From contig JALSLY010000009.1 in NCBI GenBank assembly GCA_026988035.1, positions 1 to 64,000 on the forward strand: a stretch of DNA of 64,000 bases. Direction: 5' to 3'. The notes below the pieces were generated by a model, which saw only the letters and a program-made list of their open reading frames with translations, searched no databases and was not told where the DNA came from. Positions 22,510-51,628 of the stretch are shown one piece after another; position 1 is the first letter of the stretch; every line of letters starts with the position of its first letter. A program made the position numbers and the translations under genes. The stretch is from Thermotogae bacterium. Lineage in GTDB: Bacteria; Thermotogota; Thermotogae; Mesoaciditogales; Mesoaciditogaceae.

Positions 22510-22519
22510 TTTTGGCCTC

Positions 22520-23614: not shown

Positions 23615-23615
23615 A

Positions 23616-24482: not shown

Positions 24483-24512
24483 CGGATTTTACCTCCGTAA
24501 CTTCTCATATTT

Positions 24513-25418: not shown

Positions 25419-25448
25419 GTTCATGCCTCCTTATGAGGTGAATGAGAA

Positions 25449-25478
25449 GCCCAGCTTTTCTTGAGAAGAAAGCTGGGC
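25449..25478 (-). promoter_or_regulatory. Hairpin between binding-protein and permease genes
   Basis: A 10-bp perfect stem (GCCCAGCTTT / AAAGCTGGGC) that can extend with one bulge lies 11 bases past the binding-protein stop on the minus strand. No T-run follows. It takes the same position as the hairpins at 1393, 16183 and 45043. Confidence 0.72.
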
Positions 25479-25488
25479 AAAATATTTT

Positions 25489-26841: not shown

Positions 26842-26877
26842 AACGATACACCTCCTTGTTTTTTGTTACCGAATCTC

Positions 26878-27912: not shown

Positions 27913-27934
27913 GCTTCACCATTCCTCTGATAAT

Positions 27935-28957: not shown

Positions 28958-28971
28958 AAGCTTTCTCCTTT

Positions 28972-29868: not shown

Positions 29869-29884
29869 CAAAAAGCCTCCTTAT

Positions 29885-31762: not shown

Positions 31763-31763
31763 G

Positions 31764-32558: not shown

Positions 32559-32610
32559 AAAGTTCGCCTCCTAATCAATCACCAACAATACTGTTAATCC
32601 ATATGCTGAT

Positions 32611-33678: not shown

Positions 33679-33733
33679 CAACTTGCACCTCTTTTGCTTT
33701 TAGAAATGCCAAGCAGGCACGTAGGCACTGCCT

Positions 33734-35550: not shown

Positions 35551-35610
35551 GATCTCACCACCTTGAATTAGAGTTTCAACGTTAAGTTAGGGCGCATCAC
35601 GAAAAATTCT

Positions 35611-36870
35611 TCATGACTTTTTGTAAGCTTTTTTTAGTGCTTTGAGAAGGGGAAGCTCCACGCCTGACAAGAACCTTACCATCGCACCACCAGCCGTGCA
35701 AATATAGCCAAATTTCTCTTCGACGTTTTCTACCAATTTTTGAGCTGCGCTGACACTATCTCCTCCACCAATCACACTGTATCCTTTTGCATTCGCTATC
35801 GCATTCCAAATCTCTTTTGTTCCCAGTTCGAAGAGATGATTTTCATAAACTCCTGCAGGTCCATTGACAAATAGCGTACCAGCTTTGGATATCTCTTCCT
35901 TAAAAATTCTTATTGTTTTTGTTCCAACGTCGAGGAAAAGAGCACCATCTATCGGCAACGAATCAAGGGAGCATTCCACTCTTTTCCCCTCTTTTTCGTA
36001 TGCAAAATCCACTGGGTTGACAAAATGATCGCCAAATTTATTCATGAATTCACGTGCCGGTTCAAGAAAAACATCAAGTGAACGATCATGTACGAATTTC
36101 TCCTGAGCTTTTCCAAACTTTTTTCCTTGTGCCATCCACATGATTATTCCCGTTACACCACTGGTGAGTATCTTATCTGCTGTGCCGTTCTCTAAAACTT
36201 GTTTCATCATTCCAAAAGCGTCAGATATTTTCAATCCTCCAAGAACGAAAACGGCAGGTTTCTCTGGATTCTGCATAACCTTTGTTAAGGCCTTCACTTC
36301 AGCGATCAGTTGCCTGCCACCAGCGGAAGGAAGAATTTCTTCAAAAGCTACCATAGAAGGAGAATTTCGGTGAGCTGCTGCAAAAGCGTCGTTGACGTAG
36401 TAATCTGCCAATGGGGCTAAATGACGAACTATGTAGGTTTCCAGCATCTCTTCTGGTTTGAGTTTTACCACGTTTTCGAAAGTAGACACTTCTTCAGTCA
36501 GGTAGCGAACATTTCCAAGAAGAACAGCTTCACCATTTTTAAGTGATTTCACCATTGCTTGAGCCGCAGGTCCAGCCACATCATCTATATATTTAACTTT
36601 TCTTCCAACTTTTTCTGAAAGTTTCTTTGCATGCTCTTCTAATGAGATTAAGTTGTGATAATCAAGAGTATCCCCTTGATGCGCAAGAACGGCTAATTTA
36701 GCGCCCTTATCCATCAGTTCTTTTATCGTTGGGACACTTTTGTTTATCCGATTTTCATTTACTATCTTTTTTGTTTTAGGATCTATTGGCGAGTTTATGT
36801 CTATTCTCAAAATCACGGTTTTGCCTTTGAATTCGAAATCGTCGATCGTGTTGATTTCGAGATCAGGCAT
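35611..36870 (-). CDS. pgk: Phosphoglycerate kinase, archaeal type
   Basis: The enzyme converts 1,3-bisphosphoglycerate and ADP to 3-phosphoglycerate and ATP. Several signature stretches are archaeal rather than bacterial: VILRIDINSPID where bacteria have RVDFNVP, VLAHQGDTLDYHNLISL, NDAFAAAHRNSPSM, FVLGGLKISDAFGMM, FVNGPAGVYE and VIGGGDSVSAAQK. Length (419) fits the archaeal form. I use ATG at 36870; the frame extends to a TTG at 36885. It overlaps the end of the GAPDH gene. Transfer from an archaeon with GAPDH is a reasonable inference. Confidence 0.9.
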   Translation of the reverse strand: MPDLEINTIDDFEFKGKTVILRIDINSPIDPKTKKIVNENRINKSVPTIKELMDKGAKLAVLAHQGDTLDYHNLISLEEHAKKLSEKVGRKVKYIDDVAGPAAQAMVKSLKNGEAVLLGNVRYLTEEVSTFENVVKLKPEEMLETYIVRHLAPLADYYVNDAFAAAHRNSPSMVAFEEILPSAGGRQLIAEVKALTKVMQNPEKPAVFVLGGLKISDAFGMMKQVLENGTADKILTSGVTGIIMWMAQGKKFGKAQEKFVHDRSLDVFLEPAREFMNKFGDHFVNPVDFAYEKEGKRVECSLDSLPIDGALFLDVGTKTIRIFKEEISKAGTLFVNGPAGVYENHLFELGTKEIWNAIANAKGYSVIGGGDSVSAAQKLVENVEEKFGYICTAGGAMVRFLSGVELPLLKALKKAYKKS

Positions 36871-37891
36871 CTTTGTTGCCCCCAATTTTCAGATACTTGT
36901 TTGTTAGATTAACAGCCTCCAAGCGTTCTGTTTGCATTTCCATAGCAGCCCTGATGCCATCTATGTTCTCTGGAATGACTACTGCTTCTTGTGGAATGTT
37001 TATTGCGTAGATGATACTACCTTCGAAGATCGTGACAGTTTCTTCCCACACTGCTATTTCGTACATGTCTCCCCTTGGATTGCCAAGATCTCTGGCATAT
37101 TTGAACAAGGAAGCATTTCCAAGGAAGCCATCTTCGATTCGAACCACTCTGATCCTAGGATGCGCTTTAAAGAGATTGAGAACCTCTTCTTTTGTAGTTT
37201 CTCTCTTTGGTTTTGCCACAACGGAAATTATATGGCCATGGGTGACAGGTGTGTGTACAAGAACTCCTGTGGCTTTGACATGGGGCATGACAAGCATCAG
37301 ATCGACCGCTTGATGATTGGGAACAGGATCAACTTTTAAAGCATTCGTTAATCCTCTATGATAATCGCCAGGATCCGCAACACGACGAATAATGGTAATT
37401 GCCACATTATCAATGCCTATTTCCCTGTCCAGACAATCAACAGAACGTATCAAACCTGTTGTGTTACAGGAAGTTAATTTCAGAAATTGTTTTCCCAATC
37501 CTTTTTCGTAGTTAGCGTATCCATGGAAGAATACATCTGCCACACTGGTTTTCTCCCCACCTTGAAAGATCGCTTTCTTTCCGTATTTTTCATATAGAAC
37601 TTTGTTTTTGGCACCCACTCCGGCATTTGTGGCGTCCAATATTATGTCTACTTTCTGGATAAGATCTTCGAGAGAGCCAGAAATTGGAATATTATACTTT
37701 TCCAGTTTTTCCTTGTTTTCCGACATAGCGAGGTAAAAATCATATGGCATTCCTTTTTCCTTCAACGCAAGTACCGCTAATGTAGGTGCAACGTCAGCAA
37801 CACCGACAAGTTCCATATCTTTCTGTAGCGCCACACCATCTGCTAATCTCTGCCCGATCGTTCCGTAACCAACTACACCAACTTTTACCAT
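36863..37891 (-). CDS. gap: Glyceraldehyde-3-phosphate dehydrogenase, archaeal type (type II)
   Basis: This is a phosphorylating GAPDH of the archaeal class. VGVVGYGTIGQRLADGV is the Rossmann motif, LKLTSCNTTGLIR contains the catalytic Cys, and DYHRGLTNALKVDPVPNHQAVD and THGHIISVVAKPKRE are the archaeal-type segments. Bacterial GAPDH has a quite different ASCTTN environment. GGGAGGG precedes two adjacent ATGs at 37894 and 37891; either is possible. It is the first enzyme after the LacI gene and is followed by an archaeal-type PGK, forming an ATP-yielding pair. Confidence 0.9.
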   Translation of the reverse strand: MVKVGVVGYGTIGQRLADGVALQKDMELVGVADVAPTLAVLALKEKGMPYDFYLAMSENKEKLEKYNIPISGSLEDLIQKVDIILDATNAGVGAKNKVLYEKYGKKAIFQGGEKTSVADVFFHGYANYEKGLGKQFLKLTSCNTTGLIRSVDCLDREIGIDNVAITIIRRVADPGDYHRGLTNALKVDPVPNHQAVDLMLVMPHVKATGVLVHTPVTHGHIISVVAKPKRETTKEEVLNLFKAHPRIRVVRIEDGFLGNASLFKYARDLGNPRGDMYEIAVWEETVTIFEGSIIYAINIPQEAVVIPENIDGIRAAMEMQTERLEAVNLTNKYLKIGGNKDA

Positions 37892-37989
37892 CATCCGTCC
37901 CTCCCTTGTGCATTCATGCTAAATTAATAATATTATGAGAGTATTAGCTATTTGTTATCTCATAGCTGGTGATATATTTAGTGTGATAA

Positions 37990-38991
37990 CTATGTACTCT
38001 CCCTGATTAAAAGATCTGCACTCAAAACGATTCTATCTTTCGCATTTGGGTTTAAAAGCAGCTCAAAAGCAGTTTTACCCATAAGTTGCTTTTTAGTTTT
38101 CATTGTTGTAAGACGTGGGGTAATGATCGAAGCATGGAAAATGTCGTCATATCCTATCACCTTGACTTTACTCGGAATGGATATGCCTGCTTCTTTTAAA
38201 GCTTTAACTACTCCAAAAGCCATCAGGTCATTGTAGGCAAAGACTCCATCAAAATTCACTTTATCATTTAAAAGTTCTCTCAGATGGTTATAACTACTTT
38301 CAACTTCCATAACACCGTTTCGGATTGAATTTGTGCTGATCTTGATTAATGAACTATCGATTTCTATTCCTGCCTCTTTTAAAGCCAATTTATACCCTTT
38401 GCATCTTTCGATCGATGCCGTGTTGTAAGATTGGGCACCGATGAAGGCAATCTTCTTGCATCCTTTCTTTATAAGGTGTTTCGTTGCAGTATAACCACCA
38501 TTAACGTCATCTGTATAAACCATGGGAGTTTCCAAACCTTCGACATGTCTTCCCATTATTACGAAAGGTATACCTCTCTCTTTCAATTCCAGCAAATCAT
38601 CGTATTTTTCTTGATTTGGAACTATTAAAAGTCCATCAACACGTCTTTCGAGAAGTAGTTTTATATTTTCAACCTCATTGCGATAGTTTCTATCCGTGTT
38701 GACGAAAATGATATGATAACCGTTTTCCCTTGCCGAAATCTCTATTCCCTTTAGAACCTCGGACCAAAATGGATTTGAATTGTCCTCCACGATAACACCT
38801 ATAGCATAAGTTTTCTGCTTTTTTAGGGATAAGGCAGACCTATTGGGAAGATATCCCAGTTTATTTGCTGTTTTGAGGACTTTCTCTCTTGTTTCTTCAC
38901 TAACGTCCATTTTTCCATTTAAAGCTCTTGAAGTTGTGCTAAGTGAAACACCAGCTGCTTTTGCAATTTGTTTTAAAGTTATATAGCTCAA
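37990..38991 (-). CDS. LacI-family transcriptional regulator
   Basis: This regulator of the inositol operon has the LacI helix-turn-helix at residues 4-26 (LKQIAKAAGVSLSTTSRALN) and the hinge helix NRSALSLKKQ. A periplasmic-binding-like sensor domain follows (AIGVIVEDNSNPFWSEVLKG, VDGLLIVPNQ, IPFVIMGRHVEG, FAYNDLMAFGVVKAL, VIGYDDI). The start is TTG with GGAGG upstream. The gene is transcribed in the same direction as the operon, about 100 bases ahead of GAPDH. LacI-type operators lie just upstream at 39009-39044, so self-repression is expected. Confidence 0.93.
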   Translation of the reverse strand: MSYITLKQIAKAAGVSLSTTSRALNGKMDVSEETREKVLKTANKLGYLPNRSALSLKKQKTYAIGVIVEDNSNPFWSEVLKGIEISARENGYHIIFVNTDRNYRNEVENIKLLLERRVDGLLIVPNQEKYDDLLELKERGIPFVIMGRHVEGLETPMVYTDDVNGGYTATKHLIKKGCKKIAFIGAQSYNTASIERCKGYKLALKEAGIEIDSSLIKISTNSIRNGVMEVESSYNHLRELLNDKVNFDGVFAYNDLMAFGVVKALKEAGISIPSKVKVIGYDDIFHASIITPRLTTMKTKKQLMGKTAFELLLNPNAKDRIVLSADLLIREST

Positions 38992-39342: not shown

Positions 39343-39389
39343 ATTTAATTGCTTTTAATTTTGTTATGTTGAGTCTGGAGGATATAAAA

Positions 39390-40637
39390 ATGAGAATCGA
39401 AAATGGTGATTTGAAAGAAGTTATTAGAAAAGTTGTGAATGAAACTGCAATTGTTGATGTGCACACTCATTTATTCAACCCAAGTTTTGGTTCTCTGCTT
39501 CTTTGGGGAATAGATGAACTTCTAACCTATCATTATCTTGTTGCCGAAGTAATGAGATACTTAACGATGCCCTATGAGCGGTTTTGGGAATTGTCTAAAA
39601 AGAAGCAAGCAGATGTAGTTTGGAATACCCTATTTGTTGACAGAAGTCCTATAAGTGAATCAACAAGAGGTGTATTAACAGTTCTGAACTCTCTTGGATT
39701 GGATGTTTCATCAAGAAACCTGGAATCTTACAGAAAATTCTTTGAAAATCAAGAAGTTGAACGTTACATAGATTCTGTCTTCAAACTGGCTAATATAAAG
39801 TACATTGTTATGACAAACGATCCGTTTGTTGATGAAGAAAGAAAAGTTTGGCTTGAAAGCTACAAAGATGATCCCAGATTTAAGAGTGCATTGAGAATAG
39901 ATCCTCTTTTGAATAAATGGTTGGAATCTTACAAGAAACTTGCAAGTTGGGGATACAATGTTGGTGAAAAAATAGACTCGAAAACTCTCTCGGAAATACG
40001 AAATTTTCTGTCAGATTGGATAGAAAGAATGAAACCTGTATATATGGCTGCATCCTTACCTCCGACATTTCATGTTCCAGAAGACAGTGTAAGATCTGTG
40101 ATCGTTGAAAAAGCAATTTTGCCTGTGGCTCAAGAGCATGACATTCCATTTGCAATGATGATAGGAGTCAAAAAGCTGACCAACCCAGCTCTGAAACTTG
40201 CAGGAGATTCTGTTGGAAGGACAGACATGGGTACTGTCGAATATTTATGTAGGAATTATCCTAAGAACAAATTCCTTCTGACTGTCCTCTCAAGAGAAAA
40301 TCAGCATGAACTGGTGGTTGTCGCACGTAAATTTAGAAATCTTCATGTATTTGGGTGTTGGTGGTTTTTGAACAATCCATCAATAATTGAAGAGATGACA
40401 AATGAGAGAGTGGAAATGCTTGGCTTGAGTTTTACTCCACAACATTCTGATGCCAGAGTTTTAGATCAATTGATATACAAATGGAAGCATTCGAAAGAAA
40501 TCATAACAAATATACTTGCGAAAAAATATTCTCAAATTGTAGATAACGGCTGGAAACTCTCGGAAGAAGAAATAAGAAGAGATGTAAGGATTCTGTTTGG
40601 TGGTGAATTTGAGGAATTTTTGAAAAGAAAATTTTGA
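39390..40637 (+). CDS. uxaC: Uronate isomerase, BH0493-like
   Basis: This enzyme interconverts glucuronate/fructuronate or galacturonate/tagaturonate. It belongs to the amidohydrolase-superfamily uronate isomerases and is strikingly like the Bacillus halodurans BH0493 type: VDVHTHLFNPSFG, LLLWGIDELLTYHYLVAEV, YIVMTNDPF, LPPTFHVPED, FAMMIGVKK, TVLSRENQHELVVVARKF and SFTPQHSDARVLDQLIYKW. I chose ATG at 39390 since GGAGG lies eight bases upstream; 39366 is an in-frame alternative. It opens a cluster with a DeoR regulator, an aldolase fusion and a TRAP importer, in keeping with uronate use. Confidence 0.88.
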   Translation: MRIENGDLKEVIRKVVNETAIVDVHTHLFNPSFGSLLLWGIDELLTYHYLVAEVMRYLTMPYERFWELSKKKQADVVWNTLFVDRSPISESTRGVLTVLNSLGLDVSSRNLESYRKFFENQEVERYIDSVFKLANIKYIVMTNDPFVDEERKVWLESYKDDPRFKSALRIDPLLNKWLESYKKLASWGYNVGEKIDSKTLSEIRNFLSDWIERMKPVYMAASLPPTFHVPEDSVRSVIVEKAILPVAQEHDIPFAMMIGVKKLTNPALKLAGDSVGRTDMGTVEYLCRNYPKNKFLLTVLSRENQHELVVVARKFRNLHVFGCWWFLNNPSIIEEMTNERVEMLGLSFTPQHSDARVLDQLIYKWKHSKEIITNILAKKYSQIVDNGWKLSEEEIRRDVRILFGGEFEEFLKRKF

Positions 40638-40652
40638 AATTGGAGGAATTTC

Positions 40653-41438
40653 ATGTTAGATGAAACGCGCAAAGAAATGGTAATTGAACTTATAAAAGAA
40701 CGAGGAGAAATAACTGTTAAAGAGCTGTCAAATCGGTTGGGTGTAACGAGCGTAACTATAAGAAAGGATTTAAAAGAATTAGAAAATCTTGGTTTGATCA
40801 TACGTACCCATGGTGGTGCCGTTTTGCCTTCTCACACTAAAGTGGAATGGAATTTCATTCAAAAGTCGAAACAACATGTGGAAGAAAAACTCGCGATCGC
40901 GCGAAAAGCTCTTGAATTTGTGAAACCTGGAGATAGCATAATACTTGACAGTGGAACCACCACACTTGCCATGGCAAGAGAGATAAAGCGAATGCATTTG
41001 TATCCCCTCACTGTTGTGACGAACAATCTTTTTATAGCGACTGAACTTGTAGGGACCTCCGCGGATCTCGTCGTTTTAGGTGGTTCTGTACGAGAAAACA
41101 GTTTTTCATTAATAGGGGCTCTATGCGAAGAAAATTTAAAAAAGATCTATGTGGATAAGGCATTCATCGGGGCAACAGGCTTCTCCATCGAAGGCTTCAT
41201 GACTCCGGATATAAACGAGGCAAAGATCAAAAACACGATGGTTTCACAAGCAAGTGAGATCTTCATTGTTGTAGATTCTTCTAAGTTTGCTCATCCATCG
41301 TTTGCAATATATACCACTTTTGACAAGATTGATCATGTGATAACAGATTGGAGCATACCGTCTGAGACTGAGAAATTGTTAAAAAGCTTAGGGATGGATG
41401 TTGTAAAAGCATCCAAAGAAGGAGGAGATAAAAATTGA
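40653..41438 (+). CDS. DeoR-family transcriptional repressor
   Basis: This protein has an N-terminal winged helix (EITVKELSNRLGVTSVTIRK, residues about 17-36, with RTHGGAV ending the wing) and a DeoRC sensor domain with DSGTTTLAMA, VVTNNLFIATEL, VLGGSVRENSFSLIG and VVDSSKFAHPS. It is encoded directly after the uronate isomerase and overlaps the fused aldolase gene by four bases, so it likely controls this cluster. It is only distantly like the other DeoR protein at 11613. Its effector would be a phosphorylated intermediate of the pathway. Confidence 0.9.
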   Translation: MLDETRKEMVIELIKERGEITVKELSNRLGVTSVTIRKDLKELENLGLIIRTHGGAVLPSHTKVEWNFIQKSKQHVEEKLAIARKALEFVKPGDSIILDSGTTTLAMAREIKRMHLYPLTVVTNNLFIATELVGTSADLVVLGGSVRENSFSLIGALCEENLKKIYVDKAFIGATGFSIEGFMTPDINEAKIKNTMVSQASEIFIVVDSSKFAHPSFAIYTTFDKIDHVITDWSIPSETEKLLKSLGMDVVKASKEGGDKN

Positions 41439-43579
41439 TCCTCGAAAAAAACATGGTAACCGTTGTACACCCGATGGCATTTCCTGGTCGACAAAATACA
41501 AACTCAATGCTCAGGGGCGAGCCTGGTGAACGCTACCTTATGGAATCTCTCAAAGTTTTGGCTAAGGATCCGTATTTCGGTGGAATTGAATTAACTCGAA
41601 TAAAGGATCCATCCTTGATGAAAAAGGCGATCGACTACTTATCAAAAACAGATCTTCATATCTTTTTCACAGCACAGCCCGTACAGATATTGAACGAAGA
41701 AGGATATGCTCCAACAGATATTTCTTCGATCAATGAACTTGACAGAATAAACTCTATCAATCGACTCAAGGAAATGATCGATCAAGCATATGAATTTAAC
41801 GCAGAAGGCTTCACTTTGATGAGCGGGCGGGATCCCGGAGAAACTTTGCGCGAAAGTGCGAAATTATCGCTGATCAGATCTATTCACGAACTTTGTGAGT
41901 ATTCAAGTAAACGTGCGAAGACTTTAAAGAAAAAGCCATTGAAGATCATTCTTGAAATGTTTGACAGAATAGACGATCCACGTGGTCGTTTCCACAACCA
42001 ACTTATAGGCCCCACTTTTGAAGCCATTGAAATTGCCAGGAGACTGCGCGATGAGTATCATCATGATGAGTTTGGGCTCCTGTACGATCTTACTCATATG
42101 TTCCTCATAAGGAACATTCACATAAAACATGAAAACATCAACATCGAAGTTCCCACTGAAGCAACATCTGGTTCAGCAACCACACAGAAATATGAAAATT
42201 TAGTGAAAGAAGAAATGGTGGAGGAGCCAGAAACAACAGAGGTACTTCAATATCTTATGCCTTACCTTTTTCATGTGCATATAGGGAACTGTGTTCTTGA
42301 TCCAAATGATCCAAATTACGGAGATTCACATATTTCTTTTGCTTATCCAAACGGAGCGATAAAGCTTAGAGAAGTTGCAGATTTTATCAAAGCACTCCAT
42401 GAAATGGGATACAAAGGCCCCATAGGTTTTGAGATCATGCCACGAGGTCGTGAGGGAAGTGTGCCGGTTCTTCAACATGCTAAGTCATTCTATGATGACG
42501 TCCGGACATGGCAAGATGTGATATATGGCGTGGGTAGGTACAAATTCGTCACACGCGAATATTTTCCTGAATGGGCATTTTTTAAGCTCACGGATCTGAG
42601 AATCAAAAATTCAGAAATAATAGAGGAAACTCTAAAATCGAGAAAGAAACGAAAGGATTTAACAAATGATGGCTATCTTGTTATTCTCGCTGCAGATCAC
42701 CCGGCAAGACGTGTCACAAGTGTTGGAAATTCTCCGACAGCGATGGGAGACAGGCTTGAGTATCTTGGCAGGATTGTCAGAACTTTAACCTCGGGCTACG
42801 TTGATGGTGTTATGGCAACTCCCGACATAATAGATGAGTTAGCCATGATCGATCATTTGTACAAAAAGGCAGGTCGAGAAGGATTTTTAGATAACAAAGT
42901 ACTCATTGGGAGCATGAACAGATCTGGCCTTTCTGGGATCGAATACGAAATGGACGATATGTTGACATCATACTGGCCAAGAGATCTCGTTCGAAATAAT
43001 CTCGACGCTGGGAAATTGTTGTTTAGACTTGAGACAGGCCGTTACTCAAGATGGTCTGTGAGGACCCTGCAAATTTGTGCTGAAGCTGTTAGAGAATGTA
43101 GTGAACAAGGACTCCCGGTTTTCCTCGAGCCACTTCCTGTTGCTAAAAAAGATGAAGAATCTTCATATGAGACTATCATGGATGCTGATGAGTTGATAAA
43201 AATCGTTGGGATTGTTTCTGGAATAGGTGGTTCAAGTGCAAAAACATGGATAAAAATTCCGTATGTACCAAATTTTGAAAGAGTCGTAAGGGCTACTACC
43301 CTTCCCATTTTGATACTTGGAGGAGACTCCAAAGAGGATCCCACATATACAATAGAAAATATTTCCAAAGCTTTAGAAAGCGGTCCAAATGTACGGGGAG
43401 CTTTGGTAGGAAGGAATATTCTTTTCCCAGGAGATGATGATCCGGCAGCTGTAATGTATGCGGTGTACAAGACAGTGCATGAAGGATTATCTGCTATGGA
43501 GGCGTTAGAGGAAATGATAAAGGTGAGAAACAAGAACTTCGACGAACTAAAAGAGATTTTCAAAGAAACCTTAATGTGA
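41435..43579 (+). CDS. Fusion: xylose-isomerase-like TIM barrel + Cgl0159-family aldolase
   Basis: This is a two-domain protein of 714 residues. Residues about 1-380 resemble the xylose isomerase/IolE-like barrel (FGGIELTRIKDPS, IILEMFDRIDDPRGR, YLFHVHIGNC, GFEIMPRGREG). From about 410, VILAADHPARRVTS, VDGVMATPDIIDEL, VLIGSMNRSGLSG, GKLLFRLETG, FLEPLPV and AKTWIKIPY match the Cgl0159 family, a DeoC-like (beta/alpha)8 fold found in actinobacterial inositol clusters and thought to be the aldolase there. Start is TTG with GGAGGA upstream. The fusion could join isomerisation with C-C cleavage. I have not seen this arrangement described. Confidence 0.75.
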   Translation: MILEKNMVTVVHPMAFPGRQNTNSMLRGEPGERYLMESLKVLAKDPYFGGIELTRIKDPSLMKKAIDYLSKTDLHIFFTAQPVQILNEEGYAPTDISSINELDRINSINRLKEMIDQAYEFNAEGFTLMSGRDPGETLRESAKLSLIRSIHELCEYSSKRAKTLKKKPLKIILEMFDRIDDPRGRFHNQLIGPTFEAIEIARRLRDEYHHDEFGLLYDLTHMFLIRNIHIKHENINIEVPTEATSGSATTQKYENLVKEEMVEEPETTEVLQYLMPYLFHVHIGNCVLDPNDPNYGDSHISFAYPNGAIKLREVADFIKALHEMGYKGPIGFEIMPRGREGSVPVLQHAKSFYDDVRTWQDVIYGVGRYKFVTREYFPEWAFFKLTDLRIKNSEIIEETLKSRKKRKDLTNDGYLVILAADHPARRVTSVGNSPTAMGDRLEYLGRIVRTLTSGYVDGVMATPDIIDELAMIDHLYKKAGREGFLDNKVLIGSMNRSGLSGIEYEMDDMLTSYWPRDLVRNNLDAGKLLFRLETGRYSRWSVRTLQICAEAVRECSEQGLPVFLEPLPVAKKDEESSYETIMDADELIKIVGIVSGIGGSSAKTWIKIPYVPNFERVVRATTLPILILGGDSKEDPTYTIENISKALESGPNVRGALVGRNILFPGDDDPAAVMYAVYKTVHEGLSAMEALEEMIKVRNKNFDELKEIFKETLM

Positions 43580-43596
43580 CAAAGGAGGCGATTTCT

Positions 43597-44043
43597 ATGA
43601 TTTTTGACATAAGAGATAGAAATCTTATTTTTGTAAGATTCGACAACGGAGACAACTTTTACGATTCGCTTTATTCTGTGATAGAAAAATATTCAATCGA
43701 TACAGGTGTGATCTTGTCGGGAATGGGAATGTTGAGAGATTTTGAAATCGGATGGTTTAACGGAAAAGAATATGAAAAAACGAAAGTAGAGACTCCTCAT
43801 GAGCTTGTGGCAATGACTGGGAACATAGAGAAGAAAGATGGAAAGCCCTTTGCACATATTCATGTGGCACTTGCAGGACCAGATAAAAAACTTGTCGGAG
43901 GTCACCTCTTTAGTGCAATTGTGAACGTCACAAACGAGATATTCATCTACAAAATTGATGGATTTAAGCTCGAGAGAGTTCAAAAAGGCGGCTGGACTCC
44001 ATTGAGTGGTAAATACGTGGATAACCCCAAATGGGGTGAATAA
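43597..44043 (+). CDS. PPC/DUF296-domain protein
   Basis: This is a small protein (148 residues) made of a single PPC (plant and prokaryote conserved, DUF296) domain: TGVILSGMGMLRDFEIGWFNG, then PFAHIHVALAG and VGGHLFSAIV, whose three His residues form the metal site of the prokaryotic trimers. ATG at 43597 is preferred because AAAGGAGG lies eight bases before it; the frame is open from a GTG at 43576. No biochemical function is established for the family. Its place between an aldolase fusion and a TRAP importer hints at a role in this sugar pathway. Confidence 0.85.
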   Translation: MIFDIRDRNLIFVRFDNGDNFYDSLYSVIEKYSIDTGVILSGMGMLRDFEIGWFNGKEYEKTKVETPHELVAMTGNIEKKDGKPFAHIHVALAGPDKKLVGGHLFSAIVNVTNEIFIYKIDGFKLERVQKGGWTPLSGKYVDNPKWGE

Positions 44044-44062
44044 TAGAGGAGGTGTTTTGGGA

Positions 44063-45037
44063 ATGTCAAGTAAGGGACGTCTTTTAGTAGTTCTTGCTTT
44101 GATGCTTTCTTTAGTAACTTTGAGCATCTTTGCCGTTACGTGGCGATTAGCTGATGATCAACCTGCTGGATATCCAACAACCATGGCAGATCAATTCTTC
44201 GCCAACATTGTCAGAGAAATGACAAACGGAAAGATTAATATTGAAGTTTACCACGGTGGACAACTTGGCGCAGAGACTCAGACTGTTCAACAAACTATGG
44301 CCGGGATAATACAGATCAACAGAGTCAATGCTGCTCCTTTGGCATCTTTTGTTCCGGAATTAAGTGTGTTGTCTCTTCCTTATATTTTCTCAAGTTCAAC
44401 TCAAGAATGGAAAGTACTTTACGGACCCATTGGTGAAAAACTTCTTAACAGCATGAAGGTAGCTGGGCTAATCGGTCTCACTTACTACGATTCTGGTCAA
44501 AGAAGTTTCTTCACGAGACACACGCCGATCTTAAAGCCATCTGATATGAAAGGGCTTAAAGTACGTGTACAAAAAGCTCCTGTTTTTGTCAAAATGGTTA
44601 ATGCAATGGGGGGTTCAGCTGTGCCTATGGCATACGGTGAAGTTTTCACGGCCCTTCAAACTGGTGTTATAGATGGTGCTGAAAATAATATCCCAAGCTA
44701 TTACACGATGAGTTTCTATCAAGTAGCCCCTTACTATTCTTTTGATGGACACTCGAGAGTTCCTGAAATACTCTTCATGAATCTAAAGGCTTGGAATTCG
44801 CTAACTCCTGAAGAACAAACTATATTTAAGACGGCTGCTATGGCTTCTTCTTTATACGAAAGAAAACTTTGGAATGCAAAAGTAGAAAAGGACATGGAGC
44901 TTCTCAAAAAAGCAGGAATACATTTTTATTATCCCACCAAAGCTGACATTGCTCTGTTCCAGAAAGCCGTTGCACCTGTTTATAAACAATACAGCAAATA
45001 TAAAGATCTGATAAATGCTATAAGAAGCACAAAATAA
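44063..45037 (+). CDS. dctP: TRAP transporter solute-binding protein (DctP)
   Basis: This is the extracellular receptor of a TRAP importer, 324 residues. The leader is about MSSKGRLLVVLALMLSLVTLSIFA. The body shows GQLGAETQTVQQ, LPYIFSSSTQEW, GLKVRVQKAPVF with the conserved carboxylate-binding Arg, PMAYGEVFTALQTGVIDGAENN and WNSLTPEEQ. TRAP receptors mostly bind organic acids, and the adjoining uronate isomerase suggests a uronate. ATG at 44063 is used, with GAGGAGGT upstream; the longer frame would overlap the previous gene. Confidence 0.92.
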   Translation: MSSKGRLLVVLALMLSLVTLSIFAVTWRLADDQPAGYPTTMADQFFANIVREMTNGKINIEVYHGGQLGAETQTVQQTMAGIIQINRVNAAPLASFVPELSVLSLPYIFSSSTQEWKVLYGPIGEKLLNSMKVAGLIGLTYYDSGQRSFFTRHTPILKPSDMKGLKVRVQKAPVFVKMVNAMGGSAVPMAYGEVFTALQTGVIDGAENNIPSYYTMSFYQVAPYYSFDGHSRVPEILFMNLKAWNSLTPEEQTIFKTAAMASSLYERKLWNAKVEKDMELLKKAGIHFYYPTKADIALFQKAVAPVYKQYSKYKDLINAIRSTK

Positions 45038-45042
45038 ATTTA

Positions 45043-45065
45043 CCGGGGAAGAATTTCTTCCCCGG
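45043..45065 (+). promoter_or_regulatory. Hairpin between dctP and dctQ
   Basis: A 9-bp G+C-rich stem (CCGGGGAAG / CTTCCCCGG) with a five-base loop lies just after dctP. Only a few T follow. It should protect the dctP message or reduce read-through into the membrane genes, as in the ABC operons of this window. Confidence 0.75.
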
Positions 45066-45091
45066 CATTTCCTTGATGGTGGTGATTTTGA

Positions 45092-45577
45092 GTGAAGAAG
45101 CTACTGTTTTTACTTAGTTACATTGAAAAAACTGTTGAGTGGTTTGGATTTATCTCGATTATTGTGATGCTTATCGTTTCTTTGATAGAAGTTTTTTTTA
45201 GGGATGTGCTTAATTCCCCACTAACTTGGTCACTTGATATCACTCTTTTAACCATGATTTGGATGGCAATGTTGGGTGCTGGTACAGGAGTAAGAAGCAA
45301 TTTACATATAAGAGTTGCTTTTTTTGCGGATAGTTTGACACCAAAAGTGAAAAAAATTGTGAATATAATAGTCTTTAGCATCATTTTTTATTTTGGTTAT
45401 TACATGATAGTTGGTTCATATTCAATGGCGATCTTGCCAGGCATAATACCAGATCTTGGAATATCAAACGCATGGCTCTACATTCCAGTTATGATAGGAG
45501 GAATATTTTCGATGTTATTTTCTGCTGAAAGAATTCTGGAGATCCTTTTGAAAAACAAGCCAAGGAGAGAGAAATGA
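45092..45577 (+). CDS. dctQ: TRAP transporter small membrane subunit (DctQ)
   Basis: This is a four-helix membrane protein of 161 residues. VSLIEVFFRDVLNSPLTWSLD near residue 30 is the family motif around the end of helix 1, and MIWMAMLGAGTGVRSNLHIRV is the conserved second-helix segment. It starts with GTG and overlaps dctM by four bases. It pairs with DctM in the inner membrane to move the bound solute with sodium or protons. Confidence 0.92.
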   Translation: MKKLLFLLSYIEKTVEWFGFISIIVMLIVSLIEVFFRDVLNSPLTWSLDITLLTMIWMAMLGAGTGVRSNLHIRVAFFADSLTPKVKKIVNIIVFSIIFYFGYYMIVGSYSMAILPGIIPDLGISNAWLYIPVMIGGIFSMLFSAERILEILLKNKPRREK

Positions 45578-46953
45578 AGGTAAAAGTTATTATCCTTATC
45601 ATTTTAGCTGTATTTATAGTTTCATTGTTTATTAAGGCTCCCTGGGTAAACTTTTTTTCTGTTACTCAATCGCAAATCATTTTCTTGTGGGGAAGTTTTG
45701 CGCTTTTTATTTTAATGGGGGTTCCAATTTCATTCTCGTTGGGCATATCAGCTTTTTTCACTGCCATATTTATTAAATTACCTGTCTTGGTAATTTTTCA
45801 AGATCTTACTTATGGTATAAATTCTTTTGCCTTCTTAGCCATAGTGTTTTTTATTCTTCTAGGACAAATTGTTAATTACAGTGGAATGGGAAATGATTTG
45901 CTAGATTTGGCAAATATTATAGTTGGTTGGTTGCCAGGTGGTCTTGCACTTGTTAATATACTTGCAAGTATGCTTTTTGGTGGCATATCAGGTTCTTCTG
46001 TGGCAGACACAGCTTCTATCGGAAGTGTCTTGATACCCATGATGAGAAAAGAAGGATATTCAACAGAATTTGCAACAGCTGTAACGGTTACTTCTTCGCA
46101 AGAAGGAATAATCATTCCACCAAGCCAAAATATGATCATATATTCTCTTGCAGCTGGTGGGGTATCTGTAGGGGCACTGTTTATGGCTGGGTACATTCCG
46201 GGATTAATCCTTGGTCTTGCTCAAATGTCTATTGTGCTTATACTTGCTCCCATTAAACATTTCCCGAAAGGAAGAAGAGTAAAAAAAGCAAGAATACCAA
46301 TGGTTCTAATACGATCTTTAATAATTTTAAGTATAGGTTTGATCGTTGTAGGTGGCATAGTCTTTGGATTTTTTACAGCCACGGAATCATCAAGTATAGG
46401 AGCAGCAACAGCGCTAATAGTTTCGTTTTTGTTTTACCGAAAAAACATGACTTTCAAAAATTCTGTCAAGATTTTCAAAGAAACCTTCAGAACTTCTGTT
46501 ATGGTTTTGTTCTTAATTGCAAATGCTGCAGCTTTTGGGTACGTCATGGCTTATTTACAAGTACCCTCAGCCCTTGCTAATGCTATAACATCTATCAGCA
46601 GTAATCCAATTATAATATTACTCATGATCAATTTACTCCTTCTTGTGTTAGGACTCGTAATGGATATGGCTCCTTTGATAGTTATAATGACCCCAATACT
46701 TTTACCACTTGTTGAAAAGGTTGGCATGAGCCCAATACAATTTGGAATAGTTATGCTCATCAATCTTGGTATAGGTCTGTGCACGCCTCCTGTTGGTAAT
46801 ACGTTATTTGTGGGTTGTGCTGTTGGTAAAACCACGATAGAGAGAACCACCAAAGAAATGGTTCCACTGTATATCGCCATGGTAATAGTCTTGATCATTA
46901 TTACATACGTTCCAAATTTGTCAATGTTCTTGCCGAATCTTTTTCATCTTTGA
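45574..46953 (+). CDS. dctM: TRAP transporter large membrane subunit (DctM)
   Basis: This is the channel-forming subunit, 459 residues with about twelve helices. Typical segments include LMGVPISFSLGISAF, LLGQIVNYSGMGNDLLDLAN, GGISGSSVADTASIGSVLIPMM, EGIIIPPSQNMIIYSLAAGG, GFFTATESSSIGAA, and LVMDMAPLIVIMTPILLPLV plus CTPPVGNTLFVG. Complete and normal in length. It closes the transporter trio; a sugar kinase gene follows after 18 bases. Confidence 0.95.
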   Translation: MKVKVIILIILAVFIVSLFIKAPWVNFFSVTQSQIIFLWGSFALFILMGVPISFSLGISAFFTAIFIKLPVLVIFQDLTYGINSFAFLAIVFFILLGQIVNYSGMGNDLLDLANIIVGWLPGGLALVNILASMLFGGISGSSVADTASIGSVLIPMMRKEGYSTEFATAVTVTSSQEGIIIPPSQNMIIYSLAAGGVSVGALFMAGYIPGLILGLAQMSIVLILAPIKHFPKGRRVKKARIPMVLIRSLIILSIGLIVVGGIVFGFFTATESSSIGAATALIVSFLFYRKNMTFKNSVKIFKETFRTSVMVLFLIANAAAFGYVMAYLQVPSALANAITSISSNPIIILLMINLLLLVLGLVMDMAPLIVIMTPILLPLVEKVGMSPIQFGIVMLINLGIGLCTPPVGNTLFVGCAVGKTTIERTTKEMVPLYIAMVIVLIIITYVPNLSMFLPNLFHL

Positions 46954-46980
46954 TGTCAATAAAAAGGTGGTATGAATTAT

Positions 46981-48297
46981 ATGATACTTGATAAGGTTTA
47001 TGATGCATCTATCAATTTTAGCATAAATCGTGCCAAGAGCTCGTCGGCAATTGCTCTTGGTTTCCATTCGGTAATAGATGGTTTAATTAGAGTAAAGCCT
47101 GAGAAGTTTAGTAACATTATGGACATAGACATTCCCAAAAATCTGGATATGCTACCAAAATCCATAAAAACAAAAGAGGACTTTTTCAAAAGTCTATTGT
47201 TTTCTTTTGTAAATGGTTCAGCACTTCAACTCATGATTGACTCTGAAGATGTTTATAAGTGGATAATGAAAGAATTCGGAACTGGTACTTTGCATTTAGG
47301 AGGAACTTCAGCCAACATGGCAGCAGCATTGACCTGTTTTCCGTTTCCCAAAGTATTGATCTATGCCTATCCTTTAACCGAGGAACTCGCAAAGCTCTTT
47401 CCGATTTCTCCCAATCTTTTTGTGGTCTACGGTGATGGATTAAAACAACCAAAAGAGATATATGGTCAGAAGGGGATAAAAGCGATTCACTGGATTTTTG
47501 AATTTTCTCAAGGACAGAAGATAAAAATTTCTGGGAAGAATTACATTTGTCCACGATCAAATAGATTTATAGCTTCCTGGAATCCTGTTAATTCTCGATT
47601 AGAAGTTAGGGAACCTTTTAAATCGTATGTTATAGAACACGCATCAGCGATCTCAAAATTTCTTCTATCGGGTTTTCACATAATGAGGGATGTTTATCCT
47701 GATGGTAAAACGGCAAGAGATAGAATTGACGATCTTGCAAATTTTATTCAAGATATGAAGAGGAGAAATCCACAAATTCAATTTCATGTTGAATTTGCAT
47801 CCATAAGGCGTGATGGTGTAAGAAAGGCCGTGGAAGATACCTTATTTCCAATTTCAGACAGCCTTGGAGCAAACGAAGTTGAGTTATCATGGATAGCTCG
47901 TGATTTAGGTATGGATACGAATGGGATAGAAAAGGGAGATGTTAAAAAGACTTCAGATGTGCTTTTGAAACTCAGGGAAATAGGCCTTAAGAGGGTACAT
48001 TTTCATACTCTTGGATTTTATCTTCTTGCTTTTGATGAAAAATTTTATGATGTTGAAGAGGAGAAACTTGCTCTTGCATTTGCAGCGTTAGCTGCAGCAC
48101 AAAGGGCAAAAGATGGCAAATTGATCTCTGACAATTTGAAAGACGTGCTTAAAATTCCAACATCGAGCATAGAGTATAAGGAGTGGAAAGAAAGCGACAC
48201 TAAGTTCGTTCTCTTTCCCACCAAAGTAGTTCCGAATCCCACAATCACTGTTGGACTCGGAGACACTATATCTTCATTGGGATTCGCGTTAGGGTGA
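46981..48297 (+). CDS. ADP-dependent sugar kinase (ADP-PFK/glucokinase family)
   Basis: This kinase uses ADP rather than ATP as donor in its characterised archaeal relatives. Marks are HLGGTSANMAAALTCFPF (substrate/GG motif), the FLLSGFHIMRDVYPDGKTA stretch, NEVELSWIARDLG, and the catalytic anion-hole GXGD in ITVGLGDTISSLG near the C-terminus. Length (438) fits the family. ATG at 46981 is preferred, ten bases after GGTGG; 46972 is possible. The family is mostly archaeal. Between a TRAP importer and sugar enzymes, it may phosphorylate a keto-sugar acid such as 2-deoxy-5-keto-gluconate. The substrate is inference. Confidence 0.82.
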   Translation: MILDKVYDASINFSINRAKSSSAIALGFHSVIDGLIRVKPEKFSNIMDIDIPKNLDMLPKSIKTKEDFFKSLLFSFVNGSALQLMIDSEDVYKWIMKEFGTGTLHLGGTSANMAAALTCFPFPKVLIYAYPLTEELAKLFPISPNLFVVYGDGLKQPKEIYGQKGIKAIHWIFEFSQGQKIKISGKNYICPRSNRFIASWNPVNSRLEVREPFKSYVIEHASAISKFLLSGFHIMRDVYPDGKTARDRIDDLANFIQDMKRRNPQIQFHVEFASIRRDGVRKAVEDTLFPISDSLGANEVELSWIARDLGMDTNGIEKGDVKKTSDVLLKLREIGLKRVHFHTLGFYLLAFDEKFYDVEEEKLALAFAALAAAQRAKDGKLISDNLKDVLKIPTSSIEYKEWKESDTKFVLFPTKVVPNPTITVGLGDTISSLGFALG

Positions 48298-48305
48298 TTA
48301 GATAA

Positions 48306-49343
48306 ATGCGAAGAGTTAGATTTGGGATAATAGGAGCAGGCAATGTAAGTTTGATCCACGCAAAAAGCATTTCCGAGATCGGAAATGCTGAACTTGTAGC
48401 TGTTTCAAGTCGTGCTGAAGAAAAAGCTTTAAGGCTTGCCAAAAAGTTTAAAAGTGAATATTATTCCGATTTTCATGAGATGCTTAAGAGAAATGATATA
48501 GATGCGGTTTGTGTTTTAACTCCCAGTGGGACACATGCCAAAATTGGGATAGAGGTTGCGCGTTCCGGAAAACATGTTATCGTTGAAAAGCCAATAGATG
48601 TTAATCTTAAGATGGCAGATGCCCTTATAGAAGAATGTAAAAAACAAAATGTTAAATTGAGCGTTATTTCCCAAAGGCGTTTTTCAGATGCTGTTATGAG
48701 AGTTAAACAGTCTGTAAAAAGTGGAGAGATGGGAAAATTGAATTTTGGCGGAGCTCAGGTGAAGTGGTATCGTTCTCAGGAATATTACAACAGTTCAGCA
48801 TGGCGTGGCACACGGATTTTAGACGGTGGAGGAGCACTTATAAATTAGTCTATACATTATGTAGATCTTCTCTGGTATGTAATGGGTCCTGTAGAAGAAG
48901 TTTTCAGTTATTGTGGAACAATGGCGCATGATATAGAAGTGGAAGATCTTTTAGTAGGAAGCTTAAAGTTTAAAAGCGGTGCTCTTGGGTTGATAGAAGC
49001 AAACACGACTGTGTATCCTGGACTTTTTGCCAGACTCGATATTTATGGAAAAAACGGAACGGCCGTTATTGTTGATGATGAGATAGAATTCTTTGCAACA
49101 AAAGATGGTATAAAAATAAAGAAAGCAAAGGAAAGAATGAGAGAAAGCGGCACTGCAAGTCCGAAAATATCATATGATCTTCACAAGAGGCAGTTAGAGG
49201 ACATCGTGGATTCCATTTTAAGCAACAGAAAACCACGAATCACCGGTGTGGATGGAAGAAATACGCTTGCAGTTGTGACAGCTTTATACGAATCATGTAA
49301 AACTGGTAAATCTGTAAAAGTGAACATCAGAGAAAATTCATAA
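48306..49343 (+). pseudogene. Gfo/Idh/MocA oxidoreductase interrupted by one TAG codon
   Basis: Read through one stop, this is a normal 345-codon NAD-dependent sugar oxidoreductase: FGIIGAGNVSLIHAKSI, HVIVEKPIDVNLK with the catalytic Lys, GGALIN, then TAG (48846-48848), then SIHYVDLLWYVMGPVEEV, and IDIYGKNGTAVI-like C-terminal strands. Relatives have NQSIH or NQGIH here, so the stop is most simply CAG mutated to TAG, just before the catalytic His. Both sides stay in frame and look unimpaired. It could be a recent pseudogene, a sequence error, or a suppressed stop. The intact product would oxidise a sugar or cyclitol. Confidence 0.85.
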
Positions 49344-49390
49344 AACTTTTTAAAAGATTGTTTATACTGGATAGTAAAGGAGTGAGACAT

Positions 49391-51628
49391 TTGGACTTTA
49401 AAGAATTCGAGATCTTAAAAGATGTAACAGGTCAGCTCATAGATTTTACATTAAACATGAGGCAAAGTGGTCATCCAGGAGGATCGCGCTCAAAAATGCA
49501 CGTGTTTTGGTCTTTGCTTCTTTCAGGAAAGATGAAATACGACATACGCCATCCAGAAAATCCCTTTGGAGATAGATTCATACTTAGCGCTGGCCATACT
49601 GTTCCGTTGGTTTATGCTGCTTTGGCGATAATCGGTGAAGCTTTCAAAAAGCGATTCGAAGAGACAAAAGATGAGAAATTTAGAATAGACCCTTCACGAA
49701 TTGTTTTGCTAAAGGATCTTTTGCGCTTTAGACATCGAGGAGGACTTCCTGGCCACGCGGAGTTTTCGGGAAAGACTCTCTTTTTGAAGTTCAACACAGG
49801 ACCATCCGGACATGGTTTGCCACCATCTGTAGGAGAAGCTTTTGCACTTAAACGTGCTGGATTGAGTAATGTGAGAGTTTGGGTGATAGAGGGTGAAGGA
49901 GGACTCACTCCTGGTGCATCGCACGAATCAAAAAACTCTGCATGGGGGCTTGGCCTTGATAATCTTTACTGGCTGATAGATTGGAACAATTATGGGATAG
50001 ATGATAGACCAACAAGCTCCGTTGTAAGTGGAACACCTCAAGAGTGGTTTGAGCCTTATGGATGGAATGTTGCCGGATGTGAAAATGGTCATGATTGGAA
50101 AGAAATAAGTGAAACTTTTGAAAAATTGGAAGCTCACAAAAAAGATAACGTACCTAACGTAGCGTGGTTTAGAACACGTAAAGGATACGGTTATGGTGTG
50201 TATGATAACAAATCTCATGGTACACCCCACAAGGCAAATTCAGATATATTTTGGAAGACAAGAGATGAATTCATTCAGCGTTACGGTGTCGAATTTGTTG
50301 GATATGGCAAAGTCGCCCCAGAGCATGAGCAATTTTTGAAACAAACTGAAGAAAATTTGAAAATCGCACTTGATGTTGTTTTAAGAAATGAGCAACTTTT
50401 AACACATCTTACAGATAGAATCATTGAAATAGCAGAAAGCATTCCGAAAACGAAAATAACTCTTGAACCTAAGATATTTAAAGACAAAGAGTTTTTTGAC
50501 TACATGAAATATCCAAAAGAAATCTTTTTTGAACCTGGCACAAAAGTTGCAAATAGAAAAGCGTTAAGTGTGTGGGGAGCTTGGATAAATTCCGAAAGCA
50601 AAAGGAAATACGATCGCCCTCTTTTCTTGGCAGCGTCTGCAGATTTGGCTGAGTCGACAAATATATCTGGTTTTGCAAAAGGTTTTGGAGATTTTGATGG
50701 TTATGGTTGGTACGACAAAGAGAAGAATCCAAATGGTGTTTTGCTTCCCCAAGAGATTACAGAGTTCACAAACGCTGGAATTTCTGCAGGAGTGGCTGCA
50801 ATTAACCTTTCGGACAAACCATTTGAATCGTTCAACGGATTTTACATGGCTACATCTACATATGGTTCATTTTCTTACCTTAAATATGGTGCATACAGGT
50901 TATTTTCTCAGATGACTCAGGATTGTCCTGTAAGACTTGGTAAAGTCCTATGGATTGCAGGACATTCCGGACCTGAAACGGCTGATGATTCGAGAACACA
51001 TTTTGGAATTTTTTCACCCGTTGTCACTCAGCTGTTTCCAAAAGGACACGTGATAAATTTATACCCATGGGAAGCTAATGAAGTACCAGTTTTGCTTGGT
51101 GCAGCATTTTCAACAAACATTCCGATAGTTGTTTTGCATCTTACAAGACCTCCTATCGAAATTCCAGACAGGCAAAAGTTGGGAATACCAACTTATTTCG
51201 AAGCAGCAAAAGGTGCATACATTCTAAAAGATTTTAAAGACGGGAAAAAGGATGGAACAATATTGGTTAGAGGAACTATGTCTACTTTTAACTTGTTAAA
51301 AGTTATGAATGAGATAGACCAAAAATATAACTTGAAAATTATTGCCATTCCTTCAAAGGAACTCTTTGACATACAACCTGATGAATACAAAGAAAAAGTT
51401 CTTCCGTGGGAAGAATGGGAAAATTCAATGATAATAACGAATGAATCATTGAGAGCCGTTGAAGACTGGCTGGCAACAAAGAAATGTGCTCAATACTCTA
51501 TGTCTTCTGATTGGGATAACAGATGGCGCACTGGCGGTACCTTAGAAGAAGTTATAGAGGAAGCCCATCTCGATCCGGAAAACATTCTTAAGGGGATAAA
51601 ACGATTTGTGGAAAAAAGTTCGCTTTAA
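49391..51628 (+). CDS. Large single-chain transketolase-like ThDP enzyme
   Basis: This 745-residue protein has transketolase order. NMRQSGHPGGSRSKMH holds the first His, ILSAGHTVPLVYAAL follows, and the ThDP motif appears as VIEGEGGLTPGASHE up to LIDWNNYGID (GEG instead of GDG). A pyrimidine domain has FLAASADLAESTNISGF and ITEFTNAGISAGVA, and the C-terminal domain follows. It is about 80-100 residues longer than standard transketolase, with an insertion in the middle (about 290-370). The TTG at 49391 is preferred, six bases after AAAGGAG. It closes the uronate-type cluster. The reaction is not known; it differs from the split transketolase at 33734-35550. Confidence 0.78.
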   Translation: MDFKEFEILKDVTGQLIDFTLNMRQSGHPGGSRSKMHVFWSLLLSGKMKYDIRHPENPFGDRFILSAGHTVPLVYAALAIIGEAFKKRFEETKDEKFRIDPSRIVLLKDLLRFRHRGGLPGHAEFSGKTLFLKFNTGPSGHGLPPSVGEAFALKRAGLSNVRVWVIEGEGGLTPGASHESKNSAWGLGLDNLYWLIDWNNYGIDDRPTSSVVSGTPQEWFEPYGWNVAGCENGHDWKEISETFEKLEAHKKDNVPNVAWFRTRKGYGYGVYDNKSHGTPHKANSDIFWKTRDEFIQRYGVEFVGYGKVAPEHEQFLKQTEENLKIALDVVLRNEQLLTHLTDRIIEIAESIPKTKITLEPKIFKDKEFFDYMKYPKEIFFEPGTKVANRKALSVWGAWINSESKRKYDRPLFLAASADLAESTNISGFAKGFGDFDGYGWYDKEKNPNGVLLPQEITEFTNAGISAGVAAINLSDKPFESFNGFYMATSTYGSFSYLKYGAYRLFSQMTQDCPVRLGKVLWIAGHSGPETADDSRTHFGIFSPVVTQLFPKGHVINLYPWEANEVPVLLGAAFSTNIPIVVLHLTRPPIEIPDRQKLGIPTYFEAAKGAYILKDFKDGKKDGTILVRGTMSTFNLLKVMNEIDQKYNLKIIAIPSKELFDIQPDEYKEKVLPWEEWENSMIITNESLRAVEDWLATKKCAQYSMSSDWDNRWRTGGTLEEVIEEAHLDPENILKGIKRFVEKSSL

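Follow-up and report, generated by a model that had tools for sequence, protein, structure and literature searches.

The archaeal ADP-dependent phosphofructokinases and glucokinases (PF04587), represented here by AncMsPFK (6c8z/6xio) and TlGK (1gc5), share one fold and a common set of residues (D36, R206, HXE, NXXE and G-L/I-GD), and the phosphofructokinases among them phosphorylate a ketose at C1. The part of PMC7948494 that bears on specificity describes substrates of two kinds only for this family, glucose and fructose-6-phosphate. For bacterial hexuronate breakdown, the corresponding part of PMC6353982 describes an isomerase route and an oxidative route only; the isomerase (uxa/uxu) pathway starts with uronate import and the conversion of uronate to ketouronate by a uronate isomerase. 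In the IolC-IolJ limb of myo-inositol catabolism, a PfkB-type kinase (IolC) and an aldolase work on the CH2OH end of a 5-keto hexonate and deliver DHAP. The inositol cluster of Thermotoga maritima includes IolO and a PPi-dependent kinase, TM0415.

The locus analysed here has something in common with each of these systems. Its kinase has the fold and catalytic residues of the archaeal enzymes, but shares only ~21-30% identity with them (in the fold comparison), has a different pocket, lies in a different kind of operon, belongs to a bacterial clade and scores below all curated phosphofructokinase and glucokinase cut-offs. Its operon shares the opening steps of the uxa/uxu pathway but is without a UxaA- or UxuA-type step; instead, we propose a direct attack on the ketouronate by the kinase and a class I aldolase. 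This resembles the IolC-IolJ limb, except that the proposed substrate carries an extra hydroxyl and would yield tartronate rather than malonate semialdehyde. In the group of genomes that we call f10, orthologues of the T. maritima inositol genes stand in divergent orientation to the kinase block; a control search of T. maritima itself found no PF04587 and no Cgl0159 match.

The window, as the whole 64,000-nucleotide stretch of Thermotogae bacterium contig JALSLY010000009.1 is called here, contains on its plus strand (39366-51628) what is, judged by its genes, a hexuronate operon of which the kinase is a member (Table 1). The earlier note had placed the kinase in a sugar-acid rather than a glycolytic setting, and the TRAP transporter, uronate isomerase and aldolase neighbours on the same strand confirm this. 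The reading that we favour, with the balance of probability somewhat on its side, is that the gene encodes an ADP-dependent ketohexuronate (fructuronate/tagaturonate) 1-kinase.

Table 1. Coordinates of the features discussed (positions in the window unless a contig is named)
Feature	Position	Strand	Basis or remark
Inositol cluster	20963-37894	-	IolG (two), IolE, IolD, weak IolB, TM0415-type kinase, ABC genes
TM0415-orthologue PfkB-family kinase	20963-21787	-	E 4e-93; at end of iol cluster
LacI regulator	37993-38991	-	~40% identity to the LacI heading the L042-L044 kinase clusters
BH0493-type uronate isomerase (amidohydrolase superfamily)	39366-40637	+	phmmer to 2q08/2pnk, E 2e-163 over 16-421; no Pfam or NCBIfam match
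DeoR-family regulator	40653-41438	+	conserved beside fusion
Fusion: xylose-isomerase-like TIM barrel (N-terminal), Cgl0159-type class I aldolase (C-terminal)	41435-43579	+	
PPC/DUF296-domain protein	43576-44043	+	PF03479, E 3.8e-28; conserved in operon
TRAP transporter	44006-46953	+	membrane subunits by sequence and gene order
TRAP DctP-type binding protein	44006-45037	+	true start may be later
TRAP small membrane subunit	45092-45577	+	
TRAP large membrane subunit	45574-46953	+	
ADP-dependent sugar kinase (PF04587), proposed ADP-dependent ketohexuronate 1-kinase	46972-48297 including stop	+	Pfam, predicted fold, motifs; ATG at 46972, coding to 48294; 441 aa
GFO/IDH/MocA oxidoreductase	48306-49343	+	one in-frame stop in window genome
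Specialised transketolase-like enzyme	49358-51628	+	PF00456; 756 aa
Divergent PF04587 proteins of another Thermotogota genus	L031:14802-16124; L032:153-1484		full PFK, GK and new pocket sets all missing

The kinase is an intact member of the ADP-dependent sugar kinase family, far past chance, as had been supposed from its HLGGTSANMAA and VGLGDTISS motifs, both of which it has. The reading frame that the earlier note began at 46981 is real and uninterrupted; its start lies slightly upstream. The protein matches nearly the whole Pfam ADP_PFK_GK model (residues 26-439, 257.2 bits against a cut-off of 27, E 3.3e-76), and its best phmmer match among solved ADP-dependent kinases is 6c8z (E 2e-51). 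An AlphaFold2 model built on a 16-sequence alignment (pLDDT 91.6) returns ADP-dependent kinases (ADP-GK/PFK) as all of its best 22 Foldseek matches (1gc5 at E 1e-35, query TM 0.86). It is the one PF04587 gene of its genome, which is 97.6% complete. The catalytic set is retained: D431 (the Asp of GXGD), H272/E274 (HXE), N301/E304 (N/DXXE) and R198, the equivalent of R206. All 16 bacterial kinases compared have GLGD, and Leu or Ile at the X of GXGD is given as the ADP-donor residue in the relevant part of PMC5931981; the Leu at this place in the kinase is of that type, and ADP is very probably its phosphate donor. None of the three NCBIfam families that it matches reaches its curated cut-off: the best, the ADP-phosphofructokinase model TIGR02045 (P_fruct_ADP), gives 202.2 bits against 408.1, and the glucokinase models give 188.2 against 387 and 148.1 against 554; the PfkB-type IolC model TIGR04382 is not among them.

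The sugar pocket was mapped by placing the published AncMsPFK residues on the window kinase through the phmmer alignment, the letters fitting the numbering of the paper at every site checked. D36, the GG of GGQ, R206, HXE, N/DXXE and the catalytic Asp (AncMsPFK numbering) are retained, and eight residues are replaced: N32 by H, N34 by V, E90 by Q (Q86 of the window kinase), Q116 by T, K179 by A, N181 by H, R212 by N and Q244 by H. The part of PMC7948494 on the pocket lists N32, N34, E90, K179, N181 and Q244 as contacts of the F6P phosphate, K179, N181 and R212 as conserved in phosphofructokinases and bifunctional enzymes only, and E90 as conserved in glucokinases and bifunctional enzymes only. 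With all the published contacts to the F6P phosphate replaced, and the glucose determinant as well, the kinase fails both determinant sets (with the caveat that TlGK too has His at the N181 site).

In their place stands a new set, H32, Q86, T112, N115, A171, H173, W203-N204-P205 and H236, which is invariant in all 16 bacterial kinases compared, from at least four phylum-level groups. (The count leaves out the partial L030/L048, L049 and L050 and the duplicate contigs L034-L040; L049 matches the set where it overlaps.) None of the five archaeal references has the complete set, nor do the divergent Thermotogota proteins L031 and L032, single letters recurring elsewhere: His173 in TlGK, L031 and L032, Thr112 in L031 and L032, and Pro205 in three references. 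A phylogeny of the kind proposed in the earlier note, against archaeal ADP-PFK and ADP-GK, splits the 16 bacterial kinases from the other seven sequences (UFBoot 93, FastTree support 0.973). The pocket residues by themselves name no substrate. L031 and L032, on their residues, possibly represent a further specificity.

The C-terminal domain of the fusion protein is a Cgl0159-like aldolase (PF22649, 250.6 bits against a cut-off of 27; C-half to 3fok, E 4e-56). K607 and K527 are invariant in all eight sequences compared, and K607, which sits in a KxPY motif, is the candidate Schiff-base Lys. The N-terminal domain is less easily placed: its profile found no solved relative by sequence, and its predicted model is only fair (pLDDT 71), with generic ketose epimerases (among them the 3-epimerases 3wqo, 2zvr and 5b7y) and xylose isomerases as fold matches. 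It has no match to the hydroxypyruvate isomerase model TIGR03234 at E 0.01, and its barrel homologue in L041 scores 25.4 against 353 bits. The GFO/IDH/MocA homologues of L027 and L033 (genomes G012 and G015) are intact, and the in-frame stop in the window copy is either real decay or an assembly error. The transketolase-like protein passes Transketolase_N (PF00456, 85.1 against 22 bits) and falls below the bacterial equivalog TIGR00232 (123 against 682). A housekeeping role for it was rejected: the genome has an ordinary transketolase (about 630-670 aa) at another locus, as do G008, G010-G016, G087, G097 and G099, none being matched in G086.

Among 103 Thermotogota genomes surveyed, 13 have a PF04587 match: ten of this subfamily, a short remnant in G015 and a divergent form in G046 and G050. 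A strong Cgl0159 match (>200 bits) occurs in 12, all ten kinase-subfamily genomes among them, and in the remaining two, G013 and G014, the fusion lies close to contig ends. The hypergeometric probability of this kinase-fusion co-occurrence (3e-12) assumes independent genomes, which these are not; the presence of the fusion in every kinase-subfamily genome nevertheless supports a kinase-plus-aldolase route. The BH0493-type isomerase is found in eight of the 103, all fusion carriers. The transketolase-like gene, in 15 of the 103, also occurs where kinase and aldolase are decayed or missing from the contig, so that its tie to the kinase is not strict: G015 (L033) and G016 (L089) retain it beside remnants, and in G013 (L092) it directly follows the PPC gene on a contig with no kinase.

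Athalassotoga, with three further genomes from the same genus, again has the block of isomerase, DeoR and fusion and that of kinase and transketolase. Two genomes of that genus (G008 and G011) have both on one contig, with ABC genes, a beta-glucuronidase and a GH4 enzyme between them. The order in Athalassotoga saccharophila (G008, contig L034), all on one strand, is isomerase, DeoR, fusion, PPC, ABC transporter, PIG-L, an unassigned gene, GH2, GH4, membrane transporter, kinase, PIN and transketolase-like (the PIG-L, GH2 and GH4 domains being read on the orthologous operon of G011). In G011 the GH2 has matches among beta-glucuronidases (6xxw, E 2e-113); its G008 counterpart reaches 488.6 bits on the beta-glucuronidase model, whose cut-off is 544. 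The GH4 is nearest to 1vjt, labelled alpha-glucosidase there and in NCBIfam, and belongs to a group that presumably includes an alpha-glucuronidase.

The f10 genomes present a different arrangement. In them the genes for kinase, fusion, DeoR and transketolase-like enzyme run in divergent orientation to an inositol cluster of T. maritima type, made up of a Zn-ADH, a Gfo/Idh/MocA enzyme, a creatininase-like protein (the first and last of which we take to correspond to IolM and IolN), a TM0415-like kinase and IolO (395.7 bits, cut-off 300), with ABC genes that resemble those of the window iol cluster. No uronate isomerase was found in the f10 genomes. IolO is described in the pertinent part of PMC12632266 as a 5-keto-L-gluconate 4-epimerase that forms D-tagaturonate, and the divergent placement of the kinase block and the IolO genes therefore supports a ketouronate substrate. 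The PPC/DUF296 protein is common to the uronate operons and these inositol clusters.

An alignment-based profile scan of genome contigs, for which a single-protein query found nothing, gave 17 loci, eight of them on contigs already in the set and nine from eight other genomes. L041, from a Halanaerobiales MAG, has a CdaR-like regulator and the kinase, with the two domains of the fusion as separate neighbouring genes, a Cgl0159 aldolase and a TIM barrel. L042-L044 (unclassified) encode a LacI regulator, IolO-like and IolB-like proteins, an isomerase, Gfo/Idh/MocA, a Cgl0159 aldolase, the kinase, a glyoxylate/hydroxypyruvate reductase (450 versus 455 bits in L042) and a glycerate kinase (490 against a cut-off of 168), the families having been scanned on L042 and L043 and L044 assigned by gene order. 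L045, from a Chloroflexi MAG, has LacI, ABC, SIS, kinase and Cgl0159-type aldolase genes. The aldolase thus stands beside the kinase in Thermotogota, the Halanaerobiales and Chloroflexi MAGs and the unclassified lineage; the surroundings of the Latescibacterota and RI_285 kinase loci (three of the eight newly found genomes) are devoid of aldolase and uronate genes.

These contexts suggest the following route. Hexuronates would be imported by the TRAP transporter, or released from glucuronides in Athalassotoga, and the BH0493-type isomerase would turn them into D-fructuronate or D-tagaturonate. The kinase would then transfer the phosphate of ADP to the sole primary hydroxyl, that of ketose C1, adjoining the keto group. 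The chemical argument is that ADP-PFK acts at C1 of a ketohexose with an anionic C6, and a ketohexuronate offers the same anionic C6 (carboxylate in place of phosphate) and a single primary hydroxyl. Four contexts, namely the uronate isomerase, the beta-glucuronidase, IolO and the downstream pair of hydroxypyruvate reductase and glycerate kinase, all point to fructuronate, tagaturonate or an epimer close to these. We regard a ketohexuronate as the probable substrate. The aldolase domain would cleave the ketohexuronate 1-phosphate to DHAP and tartronate semialdehyde, an assignment of products that we put at about even. The reductase and glycerate kinase of L042-L044 fit tartronate semialdehyde, and would be pointless for the malonate semialdehyde derived from 2-deoxy-5-keto-gluconate (DKG). 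The fused TIM barrel would probably turn tartronate semialdehyde into hydroxypyruvate, or else epimerise ketouronates, and the transketolase-like enzyme may take hydroxypyruvate as an irreversible two-carbon donor, though the hydroxypyruvate/transketolase step is doubtful. Taken as a whole, it is possible, and we offer it tentatively, that this is a third bacterial hexuronate route, built like glycolysis, in which the ADP-dependent kinase and Cgl0159 aldolase lead to DHAP and tartronate semialdehyde, the latter going on to hydroxypyruvate. In the L042 type, hydroxypyruvate would then undergo reduction to glycerate, followed by phosphorylation; in the Thermotogota type, a dedicated transketolase would decarboxylate it and pass the two-carbon unit to glyceraldehyde-3-phosphate, making xylulose-5-phosphate. 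In the open-licence literature we found no paper on Cgl0159/cg0198, on a tagaturonate or fructuronate kinase or 1-phosphate, or linking ADP-dependent enzymes, uronates and Thermotogota.

Several observations count against a ketohexuronate kinase: the occurrence together, in one cluster of Athalassotoga G008, of UxuA, KDPG aldolase and a PfkB kinase; the transketolase-like gene retained without an intact kinase; the Latescibacterota and RI_285 loci and the f10 genomes without uronate isomerase; the failure of the fusion N-domain to match hydroxypyruvate isomerase; and the IolB-like gene of L042-L044, DKG being the known IolB product. One rival is the replacement of IolC proposed in the earlier note, taken here to mean that the kinase acts on DKG from the opposite-strand iol cluster, with the Cgl0159 domain as IolJ, to give DHAP and malonate semialdehyde. 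Window IolG, IolE and IolD pass curated cut-offs, the genome has one class II aldolase and no IolC above cut-off, DKG is a 5-deoxy ketouronate that the same pocket could hold, and the C. glutamicum namesake of the Pfam Cgl0159 family presumably lies in an iol cluster. However, nine of the ten kinase genomes are without IolD, four IolD clusters without this kinase are also without IolC within ~20 kb, and it offers no explanation for the neighbouring genes for uronate isomerase, beta-glucuronidase, hydroxypyruvate reductase and glycerate kinase; we consider this substitution distinctly unlikely. Quite unlikely, too, is a kinase for some other uronate- or inositol-derived ketose or keto-acid (an epimer supplied by the fused barrel, or 5-keto-L-gluconate) followed by aldol cleavage to DHAP: the likeness of the barrel to ketose 3-epimerases and IolO, and the inositol genes that f10 genomes carry in place of uronate isomerase, speak for it, but it needs an extra step to account for the uronate isomerase and no marker points to a particular epimer.

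The other role envisaged in the earlier note, that of KDG kinase, would suit a hexuronate operon, and the classical route requires such an enzyme according to the relevant part of PMC6353982. Across 17 genomes (kinase carriers and near relatives, including G013-G016, in which the kinase is decayed or missing), that route is incomplete as judged on UxaA (0/17), UxuA (1/17) and KDPG aldolase (3/17), all three being absent from the window genome; the aldolase of the operon, moreover, is of Cgl0159 type, not KDPG aldolase, and a KDG kinase is hardly credible here. Athalassotoga G008 may have the classical route as well. Family, fold, catalytic motifs and best curated model would fit an ordinary glycolytic ADP-phosphofructokinase or ADP-glucokinase that happens to sit in a sugar-acid operon, but the scores reach at most half of the respective curated cut-offs, K179, N181 and R212 and the glucokinase determinant E90 are replaced in 16 of 16, and the operon context speaks against it; this is very improbable, and action on glucose or F6P only appears unlikely from the pocket. 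The analysis instead supports, as the likely substrate, the keto-acid sugar that the earlier note had envisaged, which would be a new specificity.

The inositol cluster of the window deserves separate mention. The claim that no IolC-like kinase accompanies the iol genes needs amending, in that a PfkB-family kinase, the TM0415 orthologue, does end the cluster, and holds in that none passes the curated IolC model; elsewhere in the genome, where iolC was also to be sought, no PfkB protein exceeds that model either (six weak matches, the best 174.8 against 300 bits). This kinase carries RTGRGD, an instance of the RXGRGD motif that the part of PMC5931981 concerned proposes for PPi-dependent kinases, so that an ADP-dependent and a PPi-dependent kinase may occur together in this window. 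The cluster adds a split transketolase, a type II GAPDH, a PGK-like protein (296 against 883 bits) and a tartrate dehydrogenase-type enzyme (545, cut-off 470). IolD exceeds its cut-off in six of the 103 genomes and overlaps the kinase system only in the window genome and, as the fusion, in G014. G018, G020, G021 and G039 have syntenic iol clusters with split transketolase, GAPDH and PGK-like protein, the same make-up as in the window, and no IolC or ADP-kinase within ~20 kb of their iol genes; G018 adds a nickel malate racemase (507, cut-off 500) and G020 a malic-enzyme-like gene. Our guess is that transketolase cleaves unphosphorylated DKG to malate semialdehyde, which then yields malate and pyruvate.

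The proposed ketohexuronate kinase is probably a new specificity in a known family and part of a new hexuronate route for plant sugar acids. If so, keto-uronate would be the third specificity of the family, found in bacteria and with a clear residue signature for annotation, and the kinase and aldolase would replace the reductase-dehydratase limb of hexuronate breakdown, sparing reductant on a highly oxidised substrate.
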